Below, piece by piece: positions 2,856 through 21,186 of a stretch of DNA of 64,000 nt. The position numbers and the translations under genes were made by a program. The DNA comes from Streptomyces sp. NBC_00775 (GTDB lineage: Bacteria > Actinomycetota > Actinomycetes > Streptomycetales > Streptomycetaceae): assembly GCF_036347135.1 (NCBI RefSeq), contig NZ_CP108938.1:6820001-6884000 (forward strand), in the 5' to 3' direction. The notes under the pieces are model-generated. The model was not told where the DNA came from and made no database searches. It worked only from the letters and a program-made list of their open reading frames with translations. Each line of letters starts with the position of its first letter. The stretch's first letter is position 1.

Positions 2856-2900
2856 TGTGAAGTCGCCGCCCTTATTGGATAGTTGCCCTATCTTTCTCCC

Positions 2901-5501
2901 GTGGACCAGTTGATCGCCGAAGAAGACCCCACCCGTATAGGCCCGTACCGCCTGATCGCCCGGCTCGGCGCGGGCGGCATGGGCCTGGTCTATCTGGGCC
3001 GTTCCGAGGTCGGACGCACCGTGGCCGTGAAGGTCGTGCAGGCCGAGTACGCCGGGAACCCGGAGTTCCGCAAGCGCTTCGCCCGTGAGGTCGACGCCGC
3101 GCGGCGGGTGGGCGGCAGCTGGACGGCGGCCGTGCTCGACGCCGACAGCGAGGCCGACGTTCCCTGGGTGGCGACCCAGTACATCCCGGGGCCCGACCTG
3201 CACAGCGTGGTCGCCAAGGACTTCGGGCCGTTGCCCGAGCATTCGGCGCATACCCTCGCCAACCGGCTCGCCCTCGCCCTCCAGGCCGTGCACGAGGCGG
3301 GCCTGATCCACCGTGACCTCAAGCCGTCCAATGTCCTCGTCACCGTCGACGGCCCCCGCGTCATCGACTTCGGCATCGCGCGGGCCATGGACAGCCTCGC
3401 CGGAGACAGCCTGCACACTCGGACCGGCATGCTGATCGGTTCCCCCGGCTTCATGTCGCCGGAGCAGGTCCGCGGCCTTGAACTCACCCCCGCCAGCGAT
3501 GTCTTCTGCCTGGGCGCCGTCCTCGTCTACGCCACCACCGGGCGCCTTCTCTTCGGCGCCACGGACACCGGCCTGAACGCCCACCTCTTCCGCGTCGCCG
3601 AGGAAGAGGCGGACCTGACCGGCGTACCGGCGACGCTTGTCGATCTCGTACGAGAATGTCTGCACAAGGACCCGGCCAGGCGGCCGACCCCGCTGCAGGT
3701 GGCCGTACGCACGACGACGGACCGGGCCGAGGAATGGCTGCCGGGCGCGGTACTGGCCCAACTCGGCCGACATGCGGCCAAGTTGCTGGACTACGCCCCC
3801 GCGATCCCCGCCCCCGCAACCCCCGCGACCCCTGATCCGGCAACTCCCGTTACGCCCCTAGACCCCCGCATCTCGCCCCCGCAGCCCCAGCCCCAGTCCG
3901 TGTCCCACCTCGCCTCCCCGCCACCACCCCCGCCACCCGCGTACGCCCCGGCGCACTTCGGCCCCGCGCAGGCATTCGGGCCACCGTCGGTCACATCACC
4001 CGGCGCCTGGCCCGCCGCACCCCCGGCCCCAGTCGCGGCCCACCTCCAGGACGTGGCGCCCCCGCACCCCAGGCGCTGGTGGGCCCTGGTGGTGGCCGCC
4101 TTGGTGCAGCTGATGGTGCTGATCGAAGTGCCGGCCCTCAACATGGCGATGCCGTCCCTCCAAGCCGACCTGCACATCAGCTCCAGCAACTTGGCTCTGC
4201 TGTCCCTCGCCTATGCGGTGGCCTTCACCGGACTGCTGCCGCTCGGCGGGCACCTCGCGGATCTCGTGGGCCGCAAAGGGATGTTGATCGTCGGCCTGGT
4301 CTGCTTCGCGGTGGCCGCCGCGATGGGCGGTTCGGCCTCTGTTGCCGGAACGCTGATCTTTGCCCGTGCTCTGCAAGGCGTCGCCGCCGCGCTGCTGTCG
4401 TCGTGCGCGCTGTCCCTGGTGGCCACCGGCTTCACCGACCCGAAGGAACGCGGCAGGGCCTTCGGGGTCTACGCCGCGGTCGCCGGCGGCGGTACGGCGC
4501 TCGGGCTGCTCACGGGCGGACTGATCGTCGAGGGCCTGTCCTGGCGTGTGGCCCTGTACGCCAACATCCCCGTCGCCGTGATCGCCTTCATCGGCGTGGC
4601 CACCCTGCCGCACGACCTCCCGGGCCGCACCGGCGCCCGCTTCGACGTGCTCGGCGTGCTGCTCAGCTCCGTGGGGTTCGGCGCCCTCGTCTACGGCTTC
4701 AACAAGGCCGAGCCGCTCGGCTGGACCGACCCCGTGACCGTGGCCCTGCTCGGGGCCGGCGTCCTCCTGCTCATCGCGTTCGTGTGGTGGCAGACCAGGA
4801 CGTCCAGCCCGATTCTCCCGGCGTCCCTCCTCAAGGACCGCAACCGCGTCGGCTGCCTGCTCGCCATGGTGCTGGCCGGCGCCGGCTTCTTCGCCCTGTT
4901 CCCGGTCCTGGCCTATTTCCAGGGGAACGTCCTCGGATATACCCCGGCGCGGACCGGCGTGGCCTTCCTGCCCATGGTCGTCGCGCTCGTCATCGGCTCC
5001 ACCCAGGTCTCCGCCCGCCTGCTGCACCGTGTCGCGCCCCGCGTCCTGATCGTGGCGGGCCTGGTGACCGCGGCGCTCGGGCTGCTGCTCCTGACCGGCC
5101 TGACGACCGACAGTGCGTACGCGACCCAGGTACTGCCCGGCCTGCTCCTCACCGGCTTCGGCATCGGCCTGGCCTTCACGCCGGTCTTCGCCGTCGCGAC
5201 CGGCGACACCGCCTCGCCAACCGGTGATATCGCCTTGCCACAGCCCGGCGGGGCCTCGGCCGGCATCGTCACGGCCCACGAGGTGGGTGTGGCGATCGGC
5301 GTGGCCCTGATCAGCAGCATCGTCACCGCCCGTGTGAACTCCGCGCTCGCGTCGGGCCGGTCGACTTCCCAGCAGATCCCCGGAGTGGTGCTGAGCGGCT
5401 ACGCCGACACCCTCTGGTGGGCGGCCGGCGGCATGCTGCTCGCGGGCCTCATCGCCGCCCTGATGATCACGGCCAGAGCACCGAAGGGGACCGCGATCTG
5501 A
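2901..5501 (+). CDS. Serine/threonine protein kinase fused to a DHA2-type MFS exporter
   Basis: One 866-codon frame joins two complete modules. Residues ~13-275 are a PknB-type kinase: glycine loop LGAGGMG (23-29), VAVK with Lys44, HRDLKPSN with Asp139, DFG at 156-158, and SPGFMSPEQ in the activation segment. Residues ~297-392 are a Pro/Ala-rich linker. From ~394 on it is a major facilitator permease of the 14-span DHA2 drug-efflux type, with motif A GHLADLVGRKGM after the second span. Kinase and linker should be cytosolic. The start is uncertain: the frame opens at a TTG (2883), but GTG 2901 fits kinase N-termini better. TATCTT at 2890-2895 could be a -10 element giving a leaderless mRNA. 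The fusion suggests phosphorylation-controlled export; substrate and signal are unknown. Confidence 0.9.
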   Translation: MDQLIAEEDPTRIGPYRLIARLGAGGMGLVYLGRSEVGRTVAVKVVQAEYAGNPEFRKRFAREVDAARRVGGSWTAAVLDADSEADVPWVATQYIPGPDLHSVVAKDFGPLPEHSAHTLANRLALALQAVHEAGLIHRDLKPSNVLVTVDGPRVIDFGIARAMDSLAGDSLHTRTGMLIGSPGFMSPEQVRGLELTPASDVFCLGAVLVYATTGRLLFGATDTGLNAHLFRVAEEEADLTGVPATLVDLVRECLHKDPARRPTPLQVAVRTTTDRAEEWLPGAVLAQLGRHAAKLLDYAPAIPAPATPATPDPATPVTPLDPRISPPQPQPQSVSHLASPPPPPPPAYAPAHFGPAQAFGPPSVTSPGAWPAAPPAPVAAHLQDVAPPHPRRWWALVVAALVQLMVLIEVPALNMAMPSLQADLHISSSNLALLSLAYAVAFTGLLPLGGHLADLVGRKGMLIVGLVCFAVAAAMGGSASVAGTLIFARALQGVAAALLSSCALSLVATGFTDPKERGRAFGVYAAVAGGGTALGLLTGGLIVEGLSWRVALYANIPVAVIAFIGVATLPHDLPGRTGARFDVLGVLLSSVGFGALVYGFNKAEPLGWTDPVTVALLGAGVLLLIAFVWWQTRTSSPILPASLLKDRNRVGCLLAMVLAGAGFFALFPVLAYFQGNVLGYTPARTGVAFLPMVVALVIGSTQVSARLLHRVAPRVLIVAGLVTAALGLLLLTGLTTDSAYATQVLPGLLLTGFGIGLAFTPVFAVATGDTASPTGDIALPQPGGASAGIVTAHEVGVAIGVALISSIVTARVNSALASGRSTSQQIPGVVLSGYADTLWWAAGGMLLAGLIAALMITARAPKGTAI

Positions 5502-6342: not shown

Positions 6343-7773
6343 CTATTCGGCGGCCGTCACCGGCGGCAGCGTCCCCGTCCGGGCCGCCTGCCGGTACCAG
6401 AGGGCGCTCGACTTCGGCGTACGGGCCTGCGTCGCGTAGTCCACGTACACCGCGCCGAAGCGCTTGCCGTAGCCGTACGCCCACTCGAAGTTGTCCATCA
6501 GGGACCAGAGGTAGTAGCCGCGGACGTCCGCGCCGTCGGTGATCGCCCGCCGTACGGCCGACAGGTGGCCGTGCAGATAGGCGATCCGCTCCGGGTCGTG
6601 GACGCGGCCGTCCGGGTCCGGCTTGTCGTCGTACGCGGCGCCGTTCTCCGTCACATACAGCGGCAGGCCCGGCGCCTCCTCGCTGTAGCGCATGATCAGG
6701 TCGTGCAGGCCCGTCGGGTCGATCGTCCAGCCCATCTCCGTACGCTCACCCGGGGTTTGATGGAAGGCGACGTCGTCCGCGCCCGGCCAGGGGGAGAAGG
6801 AACTCGCGCCGTGGCCGTCCGCGCGCGGGACGTCGGCCGTTGCCGCCGCGGCCGACACCAGCGTCGGGGTGTAGTAGTTGAGGCCCAGCGCGTCGAGCGG
6901 CTGGTTGATCGCCGCCAGGTCGCCGTCCAGGACGTACGACCAGTCCGTGACCGACGACGTCGCCGTCAGCAGCGTCTCCGGGTACGCGCCGTGCAGCATC
7001 GGGCCGTGGAAGACGCCGTTGGCGAGGTCGTCGATGCGCCGGGCGGCCGCCAGGTCGGCCGGGTCCTGGGAAAGCGGCCTGACCACCGAGGAGTTGAGGC
7101 TCACCGCGACCGAGTTGCGGGCGGGCATCGTGGCGCGGAGTGCCGAAGTGCCGAGCCCGTGGGCCAGGTTCAGGTGGTGGGCCGCGCGCAGGGACGCCGC
7201 CGGGTCCGTACGGCCCGGAGCGTGCACCCCGGAGCCGTACCCCAGAAAGGCGCTGCACCAGGGCTCGTTGAGGGTGATCCACTGCTCGACGCGGTCGCCC
7301 AGCGCGTCGCCGACGATCTGCGCGTACTCGGCGAACCGCAGTGCGGTGTCGCGCTCGGGCCAGCCGCCCGCGTCCTCCAGCTCCTGCGGAAGGTCCCAGT
7401 GGTAGAGGGTGACCGCCGGCTTGATGCCGTGGGCGAGCAGCTCGTCGACCAGGTTGCGGTAGAAGTCCAGACCGCGCTGTACGGCGGGGCCGCGGCCGGT
7501 CGGCTGCACGCGCGACCAGGAGATCGAGAAGCGGTACGCCGTCAGGCCCAGCTCCGCCATCAGGGCCACGTCGTCGCGGTATCGGTGGTAGTGCTCGACA
7601 GCGATGTCACCGGTCTCACCACCGGCCGTCTTGCCGGGCGTATGGCTGAAGGTGTCCCAGATCGAGGGGGTGCGGCCGTCCTCCCGCACCGCCCCCTCGA
7701 TCTGGTACGCGGAGGTGGCCGCGCCCCAGAGGAAGGCGGGAGGAAAGGTCACAGGGGTAACGGGCTCAGGCAT
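6343..7773 (-). CDS. bglC: GH1 beta-glucosidase of the cellobiose system
   Basis: This 476-residue glycoside hydrolase family 1 enzyme cleaves cellobiose and short cello-oligosaccharides to glucose in the cytosol. The family signature [15 protein letters not shown] is near the N-terminus. The acid/base Glu170 lies in TLNEPW and the nucleophile Glu376 in YVTENG. Length matches the family and no signal peptide is seen. It lies last after cebE-cebF-cebG, 163 nt beyond cebG. A CebR-type operator overlaps its ATG, so it is probably derepressed together with the transporter. The symbol rests on the conserved gene order and the operator. Confidence 0.93.
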
Positions 7774-7786
7774 GGAAGCGCTCCCA
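7773..7786. promoter_or_regulatory. CebR-type operator at the bglC start
   Basis: TGGAAGCGCTCCCA differs at one base from the CebR palindrome TGGGAGCGCTCCCA. It overlaps the first base of the bglC start codon. A repressor bound here would block bglC initiation independently of the cebE promoter. Site identity comes from the known CebR consensus; binding is inferred. Confidence 0.85.
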
Positions 7787-7936
7787 TTAGAGGTCGTGGA
7801 GACCGACGGTCAGGAGGAGGGGGGAAAGAGGTGGAGGGAAACGGGTGGGGGGAAGGCGGGGGCCGGGGCGGCGGTGACCCGGCCCCGTCGGGCTCCGTCG
7901 GGCCCCATCGGGCCCCGTCGGCGGTGGCGCGGCGGG

Positions 7937-8863
7937 TCAGCCCTTGATCGCGCCGTTCATGATGCCGCCGACGATCTGCTTGCCGAACAGCAGGAAGGCG
8001 ATGAGCAGCGGCAGCGTGCCGAGCAGCGCGCCCGCCATGATCACGGCCTGGTCGGGTACGTAGCCGGTGCCCAGCGAGTTGAGGGCGACCTGCACGGTCG
8101 GGTTCTGCTGGTTGAGCGCGATGATCGGCCACAGGAAGTCGTTCCAGGCCATCACGAACGTCAGCAGTCCGAGCACCGCCATCGCGGGGCGCGCCGCCGG
8201 GAAGACCACGTGCCACACCACGCGCAGGCTGTTCGCGCCGTCGACGCGCGCCGCCTCGATCAGCTCGGTGGGCAGCGCCTGCACCAGGTACTGCCGCATG
8301 AAGAACGTGCCGAACGCGGTGACCAGGGTGGGCAGGATGACCGTCGGCAGATGGTTGGCCCAGTGCAGGTCGCTCATCCACAGGTACAGCGGTACGACGG
8401 CCAGCTGCGGCGGGATCATCATCGTGCCGATGGTCAGCAGCAGCAGCGTGCTGGAGAACCTGAACCGCAGCTTGGCGAAGGCGAATCCGGCGAGCGTGGA
8501 GAAGACCACCGTACCGATGGTGATGGTGCCCGCCACGATCGTGCTGTTGAGCATCGCGGTGCCGAGCCCGGCCTGGTCCCAGGCGGCCTGCATGTTCTTG
8601 AACAGGTTGCCGCCGAACCACAGCGGCGGCGGCGTCTGGGCCAGCCGCTGGTCGTTGCGCGAGGCCGCGATGGCCGTCCACAGCAGCGGCGCCAGCGAGA
8701 CCATCGCGAAGACGACCAGGACGACGTAGGTGACCGGGCCCGCGTGCAGCTGCTTGCCCGCGCCGAGCACCCGGCGCCGGGAGCCCCGGCCGTCCGTGCC
8801 CGCGCCGCCGTCGCCCTTCACCTTCTCCTCTGCCTGAGGCAACGTCAGATCACTTGTGGTCAT
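7937..8863 (-). CDS. cebG: Cellobiose ABC transporter permease CebG
   Basis: A 308-residue inner-membrane permease of the MalG/CUT1 type. A charged cytosolic N-tail is followed by about six spans, and the EAA loop (EAARVDGANSLRVVWHVVFP) contacts the ATPase. In Streptomyces the cognate ATPase is the shared MsiK, encoded elsewhere, which fits the absence of an ATPase gene here. Its ATG overlaps the cebF stop (ATGA), indicating translational coupling. It ends with FGKQIVGGIMNGAIKG, typical of this family. Confidence 0.92.
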   Translation of the reverse strand: MTTSDLTLPQAEEKVKGDGGAGTDGRGSRRRVLGAGKQLHAGPVTYVVLVVFAMVSLAPLLWTAIAASRNDQRLAQTPPPLWFGGNLFKNMQAAWDQAGLGTAMLNSTIVAGTITIGTVVFSTLAGFAFAKLRFRFSSTLLLLTIGTMMIPPQLAVVPLYLWMSDLHWANHLPTVILPTLVTAFGTFFMRQYLVQALPTELIEAARVDGANSLRVVWHVVFPAARPAMAVLGLLTFVMAWNDFLWPIIALNQQNPTVQVALNSLGTGYVPDQAVIMAGALLGTLPLLIAFLLFGKQIVGGIMNGAIKG

Positions 8864-9888
8864 TGGGACTTCCTCAGACGTCGGGTGAGCAGGAGATTGA
8901 TCACGGCGACGATCAGCAGGATCAGGAACATCGACCAGGCGATCGCGGACGCCTTGCCGAGGTTGCCGATGATCCAGCCCTGGTCGTACATGTACAGGCC
9001 GAGCGTCTGGAACTGGTGCCCGGAGCCGCCCTTCGAACCGCTGAGCCCGCCGAACAGCAGCGGCTCGCCGAAGAGCTGGGTCGCGCCGATGGTGGAGACG
9101 ACCACCGTGAACAGGATCGTCGGCCGCAGCATCGGGATGGTGACGTGCCGGAACTGCTGCCAGCGGTTGGCGCCGTCCAGCGCCGCCGACTCGTACAGGT
9201 CGGTCGGGATCGCCTGCATCGCGGCGAGGTAGATCAGCGCGTTGTAGCCGGTCCACCGCCAGATCACGATCGAGGAGACCGCGAACTGCGAACCCCAGTC
9301 GGACTCACGCCAGTTGATCGGGTCGACCCCGACGAAGTGCAGCAGCCAGTTGATCATGCCGCCGTCCCACGAGTACAGCAGCGTGAAGACGAGCGTCGCC
9401 GCCGCCACCGAGGTGGCGTACGGGGTGAGCATCACGACCCGCCACACGGTCGAGCCGCGCAGCCGGTAGTTGAGCAGATGCGCGATCGCGATCGCCATCA
9501 GCAGCTGCGGCACCGTGGAGATCAGGCCGATGGTGAAGGTGTTCTTCAGGGCGTTCCAGAAGAAGTCCGAGGACCACAGGTTCTTGTAGTTGTCCAGGCC
9601 CGCCCAGGTCTGGTGGTCCAGCGAGGCCAGCTGCACGTCATGCAGCGAGTACCAGGCCGTGTACAGCAGCGGGATGAGCCCGAAGGCCCCGAAGATGATG
9701 AAGAAGGGGGCGATGAACGCGTACGGCGACGCCTTCATGTCCCAGCGGTACAGCCGGCTGCGCCACGAACTCGAGCCCGGGGGCGGCGTACCGCGACCGT
9801 GAGCGCCCCCCGCCGCGCCCGGCTTGGAGCCGGGCGCGGCGTCAGCACTCGGCGCGGGTTGCGCGAGAGCCTGCTTGGAGCTGGTCAC
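8860..9888 (-). CDS. cebF: Cellobiose ABC transporter permease CebF
   Basis: A 342-residue MalF-type permease. I chose the GTG at 9888 because it overlaps the cebE stop (GTGA) and gives a normal CebF length; the frame stays open upstream only inside cebE. The N-terminal ~45 residues are Ala/Pro/Gly-rich, then the first span is SPYAFIAPFFIIFGAFGLIP. Further spans and the EAA motif (ESAALDGANRWQQFRHVTIP) follow. With CebG it forms the membrane channel for cellobiose/cellotriose. Confidence 0.92.
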   Translation of the reverse strand: MTSSKQALAQPAPSADAAPGSKPGAAGGAHGRGTPPPGSSSWRSRLYRWDMKASPYAFIAPFFIIFGAFGLIPLLYTAWYSLHDVQLASLDHQTWAGLDNYKNLWSSDFFWNALKNTFTIGLISTVPQLLMAIAIAHLLNYRLRGSTVWRVVMLTPYATSVAAATLVFTLLYSWDGGMINWLLHFVGVDPINWRESDWGSQFAVSSIVIWRWTGYNALIYLAAMQAIPTDLYESAALDGANRWQQFRHVTIPMLRPTILFTVVVSTIGATQLFGEPLLFGGLSGSKGGSGHQFQTLGLYMYDQGWIIGNLGKASAIAWSMFLILLIVAVINLLLTRRLRKSQ

Positions 9889-11210
9889 TGGCCGAGCACG
9901 TCCTTGATTTCGTTCGTGGCCGCCGACCAGCCCTGGGCAGGGGTCTTGCCCTTCTGCTCGACCTGGAGGATGCCCACGTCGGTGATCGCGGTGCCGATCG
10001 GCTGGTCCTTCGTGCCGAAGTACTGCGTCGGGATGGTCTTCGCCGAGTCGGAGAAGATCTGCGCGATCGGCGCGTTCGAGAAGTACGCCGTGGTGTCCGC
10101 CAGCGGCTTCAGGCTCGCGTACGCCGACGGGGTCGACGGGAAGCTCGCCTGCTTGGCGAAGACCTTCGCCTGCTGCTCGGGCGCGGTCAGCCACTTCGCC
10201 AGCGCGATGGCCTCCTTCTGGTGCTTGCCCGCCGTCGGCACACCGATGAACGAGCCGCCCCAGTTGGCCGCGGTGGGCGCCGCCGCCACGTCCCACTTGC
10301 CCTTGCCGGAGTCACCCGACTTTTCCTCGATGTAGCCGATCATCCACGCGGGGCAGGCCACCGTCGCGAACGTGGCGTTCGAGAAGGCCTTGTTCCACGG
10401 GTCCTCGAACTGCTTCAGCTTCGCCGACATATTGCTGGTCGCGACCGTCATCGCGTTGTTCCAGGCCGACTTCACGCCCGTGGACTTGTCCCAGATGACG
10501 TTGCCGTCCTTGTCGTAGTACCGCTGGCTCTCGCCACCGAGCGCGGCGTTGTAGACCGAGGAGGCGGAGTCCACGAACTTGGTGCCGCTGGGCGCCTTCT
10601 TCATGTACTCCTTGCCGAGCGCGACGTACTTGGACCAGTCGCCCTTCCACTGCGCGGCGAGCTTGGTGCGGTCCGTCTCCAGACCGGCCTTCTCGAAGAG
10701 GTCCTTGCGGTAGCAGATCGCCATCGGGCCGATGTCGGTGCCGAGCGCGATCGTCTTGCCGTCCTTGGTGGTGGCCTGCGCCAGCTTCCAGTCCAGCCAC
10801 TGGGACTTGTCGACCTCCTTGCCCAGGTCGACGAACTTGTCGGCCTGCGTCTGGACGGCCTCGGTGACGTTGCCGACCTCGATCGCCTGGATGTCGTCGG
10901 TACCGGAACCGGCCTGCAGACGTGTGAGCGTCTTGGGCCAGTACACGTCGGTCTTGGTGGTGACGTTCTCCTTGATAGAGATGTTCGGGTGCAGCTTCAT
11001 GTACTCGTCGTAGAGGCCGGCCTGCTTGTAGCCGAAGACGCCGAAAGTACCGATGGTCAGCGTGGTCGTGCCCTTGCCGCCGCCTCCGCCGCCGTCCGAC
11101 GACCCCTTGTCTTTCGAGTCGCTGGCGCAGCCGGCCAGCAGCCCTGTGGTCAGCGCGGCGACGGCCGCGAGGGCCCCCAGCCTGCGGGACCGACGGGTAC
11201 TCGTGCGCAT
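9885..11210 (-). CDS. cebE: Cellobiose-binding lipoprotein CebE
   Basis: This is a 441-residue extracellular solute-binding protein of the SBP_bac_1 cluster. The signal peptide ends in lipobox LLAGC (Cys ~28), followed by a Ser/Gly spacer. The mature region starts TTTLTIGTFGVFGYKQAG and has several Trp/Tyr residues suited to stacking on sugars. It is the first gene of cebE-cebF-cebG, coupled to cebF by a GTGA overlap. A perfect CebR palindrome lies 115 bp upstream. Assignment rests on gene order, divergent cebR and the operator. Confidence 0.93.
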   Translation of the reverse strand: MRTSTRRSRRLGALAAVAALTTGLLAGCASDSKDKGSSDGGGGGGKGTTTLTIGTFGVFGYKQAGLYDEYMKLHPNISIKENVTTKTDVYWPKTLTRLQAGSGTDDIQAIEVGNVTEAVQTQADKFVDLGKEVDKSQWLDWKLAQATTKDGKTIALGTDIGPMAICYRKDLFEKAGLETDRTKLAAQWKGDWSKYVALGKEYMKKAPSGTKFVDSASSVYNAALGGESQRYYDKDGNVIWDKSTGVKSAWNNAMTVATSNMSAKLKQFEDPWNKAFSNATFATVACPAWMIGYIEEKSGDSGKGKWDVAAAPTAANWGGSFIGVPTAGKHQKEAIALAKWLTAPEQQAKVFAKQASFPSTPSAYASLKPLADTTAYFSNAPIAQIFSDSAKTIPTQYFGTKDQPIGTAITDVGILQVEQKGKTPAQGWSAATNEIKDVLGQ

Positions 11211-11324
11211 TGCGTCCTCCTGTTGCCTGACGTGCCGACCCCCCGGCCAACTGCTCTGTTGGGCCCGTTGGTTCTCGCTGCGGCTCGGGCGGGGAACGTG
11301 CGGGATGTGTATGTGTCAGGTACT

Positions 11325-11340
11325 GTGGGAGCGCTCCCAC
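11325..11340. promoter_or_regulatory. Perfect CebR operator upstream of cebE
   Basis: GTGGGAGCGCTCCCAC is a 16-bp perfect palindrome containing the full CebR consensus. It lies in the 495-bp divergent region between cebE (start 11210) and cebR (start 11706). A half-site TGGGAGCGC occurs at 11387-11395. Known biology: CebR releases the site when cellobiose or cellotriose binds. Confidence 0.95.
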
Positions 11341-11529
11341 AGGTGATGTGTTGAAGAGTCGTCGGTCCGGGCGGGGGTGTCAAGGGTGGGAGCGCGGAGA
11401 GATGCGTTCAGTTATCGGCCTGTTAACTAACCGCGGGGGACGGGTCGGAGGGGGCTGCGGGGCGGAGGCAGTGGTGGCTCGTCTCAGTGTGACTTGCCGG
11501 CTCCGGGTGGTGGCCTCGGGTGGTGGCGC

Positions 11530-11583
11530 GGGCGGTTGCCGGGCGGTGGCCAGGCGATGGTTCGGGCGGTTGCCGGGCGGTGG
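11530..11583. repeat. 34-bp-period direct repeat before cebR
   Basis: The same 20 bases (starting GGGCGGTTGCC and ending GGGCGGTGG) occur at 11530-11549 and 11564-11583. Related GGTGG-rich text extends from about 11505 to 11610. It lies 120-175 bp upstream of cebR. Possibly only a slippage product. Confidence 0.6.
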
Positions 11584-11705
11584 TTCGGATGGCGGCCAGG
11601 CGGGGGCAGGGCGAGGTCGGCGCGATCGCCGGGCTTCTGTCCATGAACGGGACTGTTAGATTCCAGGCCAGTCGCGCAGCGCGCGGTGTCGACGGGAGGC
11701 GGACC

Positions 11706-12761
11706 ATGGCAAGCCACGGAGCGCGGGGCCGGGGTGGCGGCCGGCCGACCTTGGAAGAGGTCGCGGCACGCGCCGGAGTGGGCCGCGGCACGGTCTCCCG
11801 GGTGATCAACGGCTCCCCAAGGGTCAGCGACGCGACCCGCGCCGCCGTCGAGGCGGCGGTCGCGGAACTCGGCTACGTCCCCAACACGGCGGCCCGCGCC
11901 CTCGCCGCGAACCGCACGGACGCGATCGCCCTGGTCGTCCCCGAGCCGGAGACCCGCTTCTTCGCGGAGCCGTACTTCTCCGACATGCTCAAGGGCGTGG
12001 GGTCCGAACTCTCCGAAACCGAGATGCAGCTCCTGCTGATCTTCGCGGGCAGCGACCGGGAGCGGCAGCGGCTGGCCCAGTATCTGGCGGCCCACCGGGT
12101 GGACGGCGTCCTCCTGGTCTCGGTCCACGCGGACGACCCCCTCCCCGACCTGCTCGCCCAGCTGGAGATCCCGGCCGTCATCAGCGGCCGCCGCTCGGCC
12201 GACGAGACGCTGCCGTCCGTGGACTCCGACAACTACGGCGGGGGCCGCGCGGCGATCGAGCACCTGATGGCCCGGGGGCGCCGCACGATCGCCCACATCG
12301 CGGGGCGTCTCGACGTCTACGGTGCCCAGCGCCGCGTCGACGGCTACCGCGAGGCGCTGCTCGACGCGGGCCGCGAGGTGGACGAGCGGCTGATCGTCAC
12401 CGGCGACTTTACGGAGGAGGGCGGCCGCCGTGCGATGACCCAGCTCCTGGAGCACTGCCCCGACCTCGACGCGGTCTTCGCCGGCTCCGACGTCATGGCG
12501 GCCGGCGCCCGCCAGGTCCTGCGCGAGGAGGGGCGCCGTATACCCGACGACGTGGCGCTGATCGGCTACGACGACTCCGCCATCGCCCGCCACATGGACC
12601 CGCCCCTGACCAGCGTCCGCCAGCCGATCGAGGAAATGGGCCGCGCGATGATCGACCTCCTCCTCGGCGAGATCGCGGACCGCCGGCCAGCGGTGTCGCG
12701 CGGGCTGGAGAAGCGGCAGCTGGTGCTGCCGGCGGAGCTGGTGGTGCGGGAGTCGTCGTAG
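11706..12761 (+). CDS. cebR: LacI-family cellobiose repressor CebR
   Basis: A 351-residue LacI/GalR regulator. The DNA-binding helix-turn-helix and hinge are at ~16-70 (TLEEVAARAGVGRGTVSRVI, then SPRVSDATRAAVE). The periplasmic-binding-type effector domain follows. ATG 11706 is preceded by GGGAGGCGG; the frame extends upstream but without homology. Known role: represses the ceb genes and, in plant pathogens of the genus, other cellulose and virulence genes; cello-oligosaccharides release it. Both operators in this window match its consensus. Confidence 0.94.
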   Translation: MASHGARGRGGGRPTLEEVAARAGVGRGTVSRVINGSPRVSDATRAAVEAAVAELGYVPNTAARALAANRTDAIALVVPEPETRFFAEPYFSDMLKGVGSELSETEMQLLLIFAGSDRERQRLAQYLAAHRVDGVLLVSVHADDPLPDLLAQLEIPAVISGRRSADETLPSVDSDNYGGGRAAIEHLMARGRRTIAHIAGRLDVYGAQRRVDGYREALLDAGREVDERLIVTGDFTEEGGRRAMTQLLEHCPDLDAVFAGSDVMAAGARQVLREEGRRIPDDVALIGYDDSAIARHMDPPLTSVRQPIEEMGRAMIDLLLGEIADRRPAVSRGLEKRQLVLPAELVVRESS

Positions 12762-19368: not shown

Positions 19369-21186
19369 CTACTCCACCGTTACCGACTTGGCGAGGTTGC
19401 GCGGCTTGTCGATGTCCCGGCCCAGGGCCAATGCCGTGTGGTAGGCGAGGAGTTGGAGGGGGATGCCCATGAGGATGGGGTCCAGTTCGTCCTCGTTCTT
19501 CGGGACGACGATCGTCTGGTCGGCCTTCTCCTGGTGCTGGTGGGCGACCGCGAGGATCTTGCCGCTGCGGGCCTTGATCTCCTCCAGGGCGGCGCGGTTC
19601 TTCTCCAGGAGGTCGTCGTCGGGGACGATCGCGACCGTGGGCAGGGCGGGCTCGATGAGGGCCAGCGGGCCGTGCTTGAGCTCGGAGGCGGGGTAGGCCT
19701 CGGCGTGGATGTACGAGACCTCCTTGAGCTTCAGGGAGGCCTCACGGGCCACCGGGTAGCCCCGTACGCGGCCGATGAAGAGCATCGAGCGGGCCTCGGC
19801 GTACTCCGCGGCCAGCTTCTTGATCTCGTCCTCCTGCTCCAGGATCTCGGAGATCTGCGCGGGCAGCTTGCGCAGGCCCTCGATGATCCGCTTGCCGTCG
19901 CGGACCGACAGGTCACGGGTACGGCCGAGGTGCAGCGCGAGCAGCGCGAACGCGACGGTGGTGTTGGTGAAGCACTTCGTCGAGACGACGCAGACCTCGG
20001 GGCCCGCGTGGACGTACATGCCGCCGTCCGCCTCGCGGGCGATCGCCGAGCCGACGACATTGACCACGCCCAGCACCCGCGCGCCCTTGCGCTTCAGCTC
20101 CTGGACGGCGGCCAGTACGTCGTACGTCTCACCGGACTGGGACACGGCCACGTACAGGGTGTCGGGGTCGACGACCGCGTTGCGGTAGCGGAACTCGGAG
20201 GCCGGCTCGGCGTCCGCGGGGATGCGGGCCAGCTCCTCGATCATCTGGGCGCCGATCATGCCCGCGTGGTACGAGGTGCCGCAGCCGAGGATCTTCACGC
20301 GGCGGATCTGGCGCGCCTCGCGGGCGTCCAGGTTCAGGCCGCCGAGGTGGACCGTCGAGAACCTGTCGTCGATGCGGCCGCGCAGCACGCGGTCCACGGC
20401 GTCGGCCTGCTCGTGGATCTCCTTGTGCATGTACGTGTCGTGGCCGCCCATGTCGTACGACGCCGCCTCCCACTCCACGGTGGTCGGCTCGGCCGTCGTA
20501 CGGGTGCCCTCGGTGGTGTACGTGCGGAAGTCGTCGGCCTTGAGGGTGGCCATCTCGCCGTCGTCCAGGGTCACTATCTGGCGGGTGTGGGTGACCAGGG
20601 CAGCGATGTCCGAGGCGACGAACATCTCCTTCTCGCCGATGCCGAGGACGACCGGGGAGCCGTTTCGGGCCACCACGATGCGGTCGGGGAAGTCGGCGTG
20701 CATCACGGCGATGCCGTAGGTGCCCTCGATCACGCGCAGCGCCTGGCGGACCTTCTCCTCCAGGGTCTCGGCCTGGGAGCGGGCGATGAGGTGGGTGAGG
20801 ACCTCGGTGTCGGTCTCGGAGAGGAACTCGACGCCGTCGGCCTCCAGCTTCTTGCGCAGGTCGGAGGCGTTGTCGATGATCCCGTTGTGGACGATCGCGA
20901 CCTTGTTGTCGGCCGACATGTGCGGGTGGGCGTTCACGTCGGAGGGGGCGCCGTGGGTGGCCCAGCGGGTGTGGGCGATGCCGGTGGTGCCCTTGAAGCG
21001 CGCGGGGACCTTGGCCTCCAGGTCACGGACCCGGCCCTTGGCCTTGACCATCTTCAGGCCGGCCGACTTGGGGGTCGTGACGACGATGCCCGCCGAGTCG
21101 TAGCCGCGGTACTCCAGGCGCTGCAGGCCTTCGAGCAGCAGGGGAGCCACATCACGCTTGCCGATGTATCCGACGATTCCGCACAT
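19369..21186 (-). CDS. glmS: Glutamine--fructose-6-phosphate aminotransferase (isomerising)
   Basis: This 605-residue enzyme makes glucosamine-6-phosphate from fructose-6-phosphate and glutamine, the entry to peptidoglycan aminosugars. The N-terminal glutaminase has Cys2 as nucleophile (MCGIVGYIG) and HTRWATHG. Two SIS sugar-isomerase domains follow (CGTSYHAGM; SQSGETYDVLAA), and the end KPRNLAKSVTVE is the family signature. ATG 21186 is followed directly by the catalytic Cys, so the start is certain. An 85-residue gene lies 20 nt upstream on the same strand. Many streptomycetes carry a second glmS elsewhere. Confidence 0.97.
   Translation of the reverse strand: MCGIVGYIGKRDVAPLLLEGLQRLEYRGYDSAGIVVTTPKSAGLKMVKAKGRVRDLEAKVPARFKGTTGIAHTRWATHGAPSDVNAHPHMSADNKVAIVHNGIIDNASDLRKKLEADGVEFLSETDTEVLTHLIARSQAETLEEKVRQALRVIEGTYGIAVMHADFPDRIVVARNGSPVVLGIGEKEMFVASDIAALVTHTRQIVTLDDGEMATLKADDFRTYTTEGTRTTAEPTTVEWEAASYDMGGHDTYMHKEIHEQADAVDRVLRGRIDDRFSTVHLGGLNLDAREARQIRRVKILGCGTSYHAGMIGAQMIEELARIPADAEPASEFRYRNAVVDPDTLYVAVSQSGETYDVLAAVQELKRKGARVLGVVNVVGSAIAREADGGMYVHAGPEVCVVSTKCFTNTTVAFALLALHLGRTRDLSVRDGKRIIEGLRKLPAQISEILEQEDEIKKLAAEYAEARSMLFIGRVRGYPVAREASLKLKEVSYIHAEAYPASELKHGPLALIEPALPTVAIVPDDDLLEKNRAALEEIKARSGKILAVAHQHQEKADQTIVVPKNEDELDPILMGIPLQLLAYHTALALGRDIDKPRNLAKSVTVE

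Follow-up and report, generated by a model that had tools for sequence, protein, structure and literature searches.

A Ser/Thr protein kinase fused to a DHA2-like exporter fold in Streptomyces: a possible transceptor-type receptor kinase

The fusion gene and its start

The window (the whole 64,000-nucleotide stretch of the Streptomyces sp. NBC_00775 genome analysed here) carries a kinase-MFS fusion gene at positions 2901–5501 (+), with a GTG start, a TGA stop and a single open frame of 866 amino acids; the uninterrupted frame spans 2883–5501 (+) and encodes, in this order, a Ser/Thr kinase, a Pro/Ala-rich linker and a 14-helix DHA2-like MFS. Both domains were identified by Pfam in this one frame, as the first-pass annotation had described for a kinase and an exporter in one polypeptide. 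That annotation had named a frameshift, or a start inside the linker giving two proteins, as what would undo the fusion; no frameshift and no good internal start was found. In-frame candidate starts at codons 295, 334 and 385, within the linker or shortly ahead of it, were each preceded by 3/6 Shine-Dalgarno bases, and codons 401–402 have 5/6 but lie within TM1. Both domains were on one chain in all 120 best matches listed, of 4929 scored. A frameshift, an internal start or an annotation artefact was ruled out by the shared one-chain architecture together with the poor internal starts.

The start equivalent to that of the window was GTG in 31/31 sequences (the window and 30 relatives), and the Shine-Dalgarno match at the GTG at 2901 was weak (2/6 bases). 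A -10 box (TATCTT, 2889–2894, +) lies 12 nt upstream of the GTG and is conserved in relatives as TANNNT: when sought from -17 to -10 in the same 31 sequences, TANNNT was found 12–13 nt before the GTG in 28 (exceptions L021, L022 and L032), compared with 0.6% of background windows. Because TANNNT stands at -12/-13 and the Shine-Dalgarno match is weak, the gene has the predicted layout of a leaderless gene. An inverted repeat (GATAG-N5-CTATC, 2878–2892), noted by eye, overlaps the -10 region; its CTATC arm was seen again in several relatives, partly as promoter sequence.

Distribution

The fusion was present in at least 155 protein clusters (120 best matches listed and 35 further ones listed, own count), and was widespread yet patchy in Streptomycetaceae. 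The 120 relatives used below are best matches and not a random sample. Named hosts among these 120 were Streptomyces and one Peterkaempfera; hosts among the loci further included Streptacidiphilus (L015), Kitasatospora (L042) and a contig labelled Microtetraspora (L037). The architecture is already known as an annotation, with the NCBI name ‘bifunctional serine/threonine protein kinase/MFS transporter’ on 12 of the 120 best matches listed; no study of Ser/Thr kinase-MFS fusions was found among the papers listed from open-licence PubMed Central. When the own genome and 12 relatives were compared, 3/13 had a match at E 1e-160 and 10/12 relatives were without one at that threshold, so the fusion was missing from most of these genomes at that threshold; even so, absence from close relatives, which had been proposed as a counter-argument to the fusion, was not borne out, as many relatives share it.

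The best 80 loci of 551 were examined: 29 encoded a kinase and a full-length MFS in one frame, 5 a kinase with a partial MFS, 1 a kinase with an OpuAC domain, 1 an MFS alone and 42 kinases without an MFS match at the threshold used; 2 frames were broken (L011 interrupted, L039 probably shifted). Among the 29 full-length loci, 27 reach TM14 in the alignment; L040 and L042 were assigned as kinase and MFS by Pfam and have weak similarity to the MFS of the window. Two copies were found in the genomes ADI95-17 (L014, L041), sk2.1 (L018, L023) and ISL-43 (L011, L032).

Kinase half

The Ser/Thr protein kinase domain (2946–3701, +; residues 16–267) matched Pkinase PF00069 with 127.3 bits (cut-off 31.7) and has the catalytic Lys, HRD Asp, Asn and DFG Asp of Hanks-type Ser/Thr kinases. 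Of the motifs first described, Lys44, HRD (137–139) and DFG (156–158) were found as stated, and the supposed APE-type motif reads SPE (186–188). Lys44, Asp139, Asn144, Asp156 and the activation-loop residues Thr173/Thr175 were conserved in 121/121 fusions and 34/34. PknA/PknB were the nearest solved sequences. The AfsK profile NF053615 matched residues 3–346 only, at 273.8 bits, below its cut-off of 1300 bits. In the AlphaFold model the kinase half was poor (pLDDT mostly <70), probably owing to an overly uniform alignment, and the MFS half alone was used. Equal-scoring kinase-like matches on opposite strands near both ends of contig C1 of G000 (19678–20232 and 11076381–11076935) are as expected for the terminal inverted repeats of a linear chromosome.

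Linker and candidate phosphosites

The Pro/Ala-rich linker (3801–4064, +; residues about 301–388; pLDDT <50 over 287–384) comprises 88 residues instead of the approximately 95 first estimated, and its Pro-rich character was confirmed. Across 121 fusions linker length was 51–95 (median 72), with a composition of 32% P and 20% A. One linker position was Thr in 108/121 aligned fusions and is a candidate phosphosite; a YxPT motif around it was present in 105/121 linkers. Because this Thr is kept in 108/121, it favours some putative phosphorylation in cis, controlling the MFS or the kinase.

Such sites bear on the proposal of the first-pass annotation that export is under direct phospho-control, in which a working MFS exporter would be phosphorylated on its loops or linker by the attached kinase and export thereby switched on or off. 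The intact kinase, the conserved linker Thr with its YxPT motif, and the 4 Thr-Pro and 3 Ser-Pro among the 11 Ser/Thr (6 Ser, 5 Thr) of the window's own linker speak for it, as does the fact that this member has motif A and a complete DHA2-like fold of 14 helices. However, the stretch with the conserved Thr and YxPT is deleted in the protein of the window itself, and no Ser/Thr new to the fusions (at least 85% of 121) was found on the predicted cytoplasmic MFS loops when compared with 108/110 standalone proteins (P0122 and P0197 left out). The sole fusion-new conserved Ser/Thr position in the MFS was 590, within TM7, and Thr512 on loop 4-5 was conserved in the fusions but equally so in standalone relatives. 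Together with the MFS evidence given below, these findings make control of export in cis an unlikely account of the family: it is possible in view of the linker Thr, and most of the comparative evidence favours another reading.

A TASPTGD loop was tried as a conserved phospho-motif and rejected; it is a 7-residue insertion in the protein of the window only, absent from 120/120 aligned relatives. A tandem 21-bp duplication (5199–5240) encodes residues 770–776 and is missing in all 120 aligned relatives; its copies differ at four bases, each C versus T (by eye).

MFS half

The MFS domain (4074–5465, +; residues 392–855) was predicted with 14 helices (own count, broken helices merged) at pLDDT mostly >90, which is the helix number of 14-TMS DHA2 proteins and agrees with the complete DHA2-type permease first described. 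MFS_1 PF07690 matched residues 401–768 with 125.5 bits (cut-off 33.4). TIGR00711 (DHA2/EmrB efflux subfamily) gave 185.1 bits, under its curated cut-off of 230.2, as a clear relative. The DHA2 exporters EfpA, QacA and EmrB are like this domain in fold and sequence but are standalone, and the TM1 Asp that nearly all standalone relatives examined possess is often lost in the fusions.

This acidic TM1 position is Glu409 in the window (codon 4125–4127, +) and Asp in standalone DHA2 relatives; we take it to be the counterpart of QacA Asp34, and the TM1 Asp is reportedly essential in QacA. Position 409 was Asp in 36, Glu in 30 and non-acidic in 55 of 121 fusions, as against Asp in 109, Glu in 1 and a non-acidic residue in none of 110 standalone relatives, a narrow set (mean identity 0.81 versus about 0.55 for the MFS of the fusions); in the 29 DHA2 paralogs of the own genome (mean identity 0.34) it was Asp in 28 and Ala in 1. 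Parsimony on the tree gave 22 residue changes at this position and 10 changes between acidic and non-acidic. TM2 Trp433 was present in 29/29 own-genome paralogs yet in only 2/121 fusions, and TM6 Asn555 in 28/29 paralogs yet in 9/121 fusions, the protein of the window being among the 9. Many MFS positions, several of them motif A or structural ones, were invariant in 121/121 (G449, G450, D454, G457, G493, R517, D582, G720, G727, G752, G754, G756 and G783), and R458 (89/121) and R489 (106/121) were loosened. The loss of the TM1 acid in 55/121 weighs against an exporter switched by its own kinase.

The member in the window retains Glu409, Asn555, motif A and a complete MFS, and because it is full-length with Glu409 it may still transport. 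Its acidic TM1 residue, and the invariance of gating and structural residues in aligned full-length members, would suit a receptor that also remains a carrier, in which the MFS would still move its ligand and the transport cycle would drive the kinase to signal in trans, a mechanism put forward for CbrA (PMC13022988). CbrA supplies a precedent, but frequent loss of the TM1 acid and the clade with a partial MFS run against it, and for the family we regard continued transport coupled to signalling as rather improbable.

Partial-MFS forms

In L021, L027, L029, L032 and L037 a stop codon was found at the equivalent of residues 672–685, after about nine MFS helices. These five genes, each from a different genome, group in one clade (SH-aLRT 100), and no C-terminal MFS half was found downstream of them; beyond that, only L029 gave a match, to a different MFS on the opposite strand. 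The clade retains the 11 kinase residues checked, and its kinase has dN 0.03–0.07 versus dS 0.21–0.53; its MFS part diverges fast, as in the full forms. A truncated MFS beside an intact kinase is a further point against phospho-control of export in cis. The partial-MFS clade keeps the TM1 Asp, and residue 409 alone is therefore no clean marker of transport.

A shorter form lies on a linear 439-kb plasmid of Streptomyces sp. NBC_00212 (L121, 4001–5689), encoding 562 aa with a kinase and about six MFS helices (to about TM6); it is a single record annotated only as ‘MFS transporter’. Because similarity to the window extends beyond its stop, to about residue 610, this form may be recent or decaying.

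Unequal evolution of the two halves

Over 1500 pairs sampled from the 121 fusions, mean identity was 89% for the kinase and 54% for the MFS. Divergence of the two halves was correlated in the same sampled pairs (r 0.74); therefore both halves travelled together. Median dN/dS over pairs of 28 genes was 0.15 for the kinase (378 pairs), 0.90 for the N-terminal and 1.03 for the C-terminal half of the MFS; pairs with undefined values were dropped, L039 was left out, L011, L040 and L042 were outside the alignment, and since Nei-Gojobori dN/dS is inflated at such divergence the contrast between kinase and MFS is more reliable than the absolute values. Standalone DHA2 paralogs gave, by the same method, 0.44–0.73 at 53–66% identity and 0.25 for the lone closer pair (82%).

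Near-neutral change of the MFS could equally mean relaxed constraint. Were the MFS a mere membrane anchor, holding the kinase in place while it decays, a dN/dS near 1 and truncated forms would be seen, and both were; yet many MFS residues stand at 121/121, and 29/34 MFS-bearing loci with an intact frame retain the whole fold, which leaves a decaying anchor very improbable.

Origin and sister kinases

On the MFS tree, built from 121 fusions and 110 standalone proteins, three changes are needed to explain the fused label, with the standalone P0122 and P0197 each placed singly next to fused proteins. One fusion and two later kinase losses or miscalled starts would fit this tree; P0122 and P0197 may have lost the kinase, or their start may have been called in the linker. 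On the kinase tree, the smallest group with support (97) that includes an OpuAC-fused kinase comprised 23 MFS-labelled rows and three others, of which two are the OpuAC-fused kinase itself and the third, L041, is an MFS fusion labelled ‘other’ by helix count. The OpuAC-fused kinase (L043, 5992–8052, Streptomyces sp. CBMA152) consists of a same-clade kinase, one helix and an OpuAC glycine-betaine-type binding domain; it is 78% identical to the kinase of the window and the only such record among the listed matches.

The three closest own-genome kinases, with 63–69% identity over the kinase, each carry a Pro-rich linker, a single helix and an ectodomain; such receptor kinases and the fusion share the linker and a C-terminal membrane/sensor part. 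In a hydropathy scan of 76 kinase tails, 54 had one or two helices and a tail >120 aa, 6 were MFS-like, 6 had no helix and 10 were other (L041 and 9 with three hydrophobic stretches). P0289 is a kinase-only protein whose tail is odd; the counts do not include it. Because the sisters carry a linker, a helix and an ectodomain or OpuAC, the MFS occupies the place where they carry a helix and, probably, a sensor. Actinobacterial receptor Ser/Thr kinases, including AfsK-like ones, have a related kinase domain, but are described with one helix and an ectodomain, or with a β-propeller, where the fusion has a 14-helix MFS (PMC1262709). That 2005 survey of bacterial Ser/Thr kinase architectures reports a kinase with a solute-binding protein in S. 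coelicolor, and its Table 2 has no kinase-MFS entry (PMC1262709).

A transceptor-type reading

As in a transceptor, transporter fold and kinase lie on one chain, and we tentatively favour, at close to an even chance, the reading that the fusion is a transceptor-type membrane receptor kinase with the exporter fold as sensor and the kinase as output. The ancestor would have been a Ser/Thr kinase of receptor type (kinase, Pro-rich linker, single helix, ectodomain) in which a DHA2 exporter fold replaced the helix and the ectodomain; via the linker, the cytoplasmic kinase would sense either the binding of a ligand in the cavity of the MFS or the conformational cycle of the MFS, and would phosphorylate a conserved target in trans. 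Ligand sensing, signalling direction and target are the parts that we infer. The reading is supported by the single frame, a single main origin in the trees computed here, the intact kinase, the unequal halves, repeated loss of the TM1 acid, a truncated MFS with an intact kinase and receptor-type sister kinases. Against it stand the complete member of the window and the conserved linker Thr, as cis- or autophosphorylation predicts; the sensor reading rests on the family and not on the full-length Glu409 member of the window. It is plausible, though somewhat short of an even chance, that streptomycetes possess a family of Ser/Thr receptor kinases whose multidrug-exporter fold has turned into a fast-diversifying small-molecule sensor, one subfamily having a partial MFS; through different members, different compounds would then be signalled to a single conserved phosphorylation target.

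Transporter folds joined to kinases have been reported elsewhere. Ks-Amt5 binds ammonium without efficient translocation, and the histidine kinase fused to it is coupled to this transporter part; the likeness is a transporter fold fused to a kinase, but Ks-Amt5 combines an Amt fold with a histidine kinase, whereas the fusion has a DHA2-like MFS with an N-terminal Ser/Thr kinase and a putative sensing role (PMC5764959). CbrA, an SLC5 carrier joined to a histidine kinase, likewise has a secondary transporter and a kinase on one chain, but is described with SLC5 transporter, STAC and histidine kinase domains (PMC13022988). The Sensor Kinase-MFS fusion family (SK-MFS, TC 2.A.1.34), whose function is given there as unknown, shares a kinase and an MFS on one chain; it is set apart by name and TC number alone, as a sensor kinase with an MFS family other than DHA2 (2.A.1.3) (PMC3924187). 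If the transceptor-type reading is true, transporter-derived receptors would include Hanks-type kinases besides histidine kinases, and drug exporters besides uptake carriers, and Streptomyces could detect antibiotics or metabolites of its own at the membrane. Whether the kinase controls the pump or the pump the kinase would be directly testable, because natural forms with a kinase and a partial MFS exist.

Neighbouring genes

No conserved gene neighbourhood was found, in that no gene family recurred in at least 5/37 loci within about 6 kb (crude gene calling). In the window a DUF397 small protein (2475–2681, −) is divergent from the fusion gene. Further downstream, the region 6343–12761 encodes a GH1 β-glucosidase and a LacI regulator (Pfam) on either side of two frames resembling ABC sugar permeases and a lipoprotein (by eye), and resembles a cellobiose-uptake locus.
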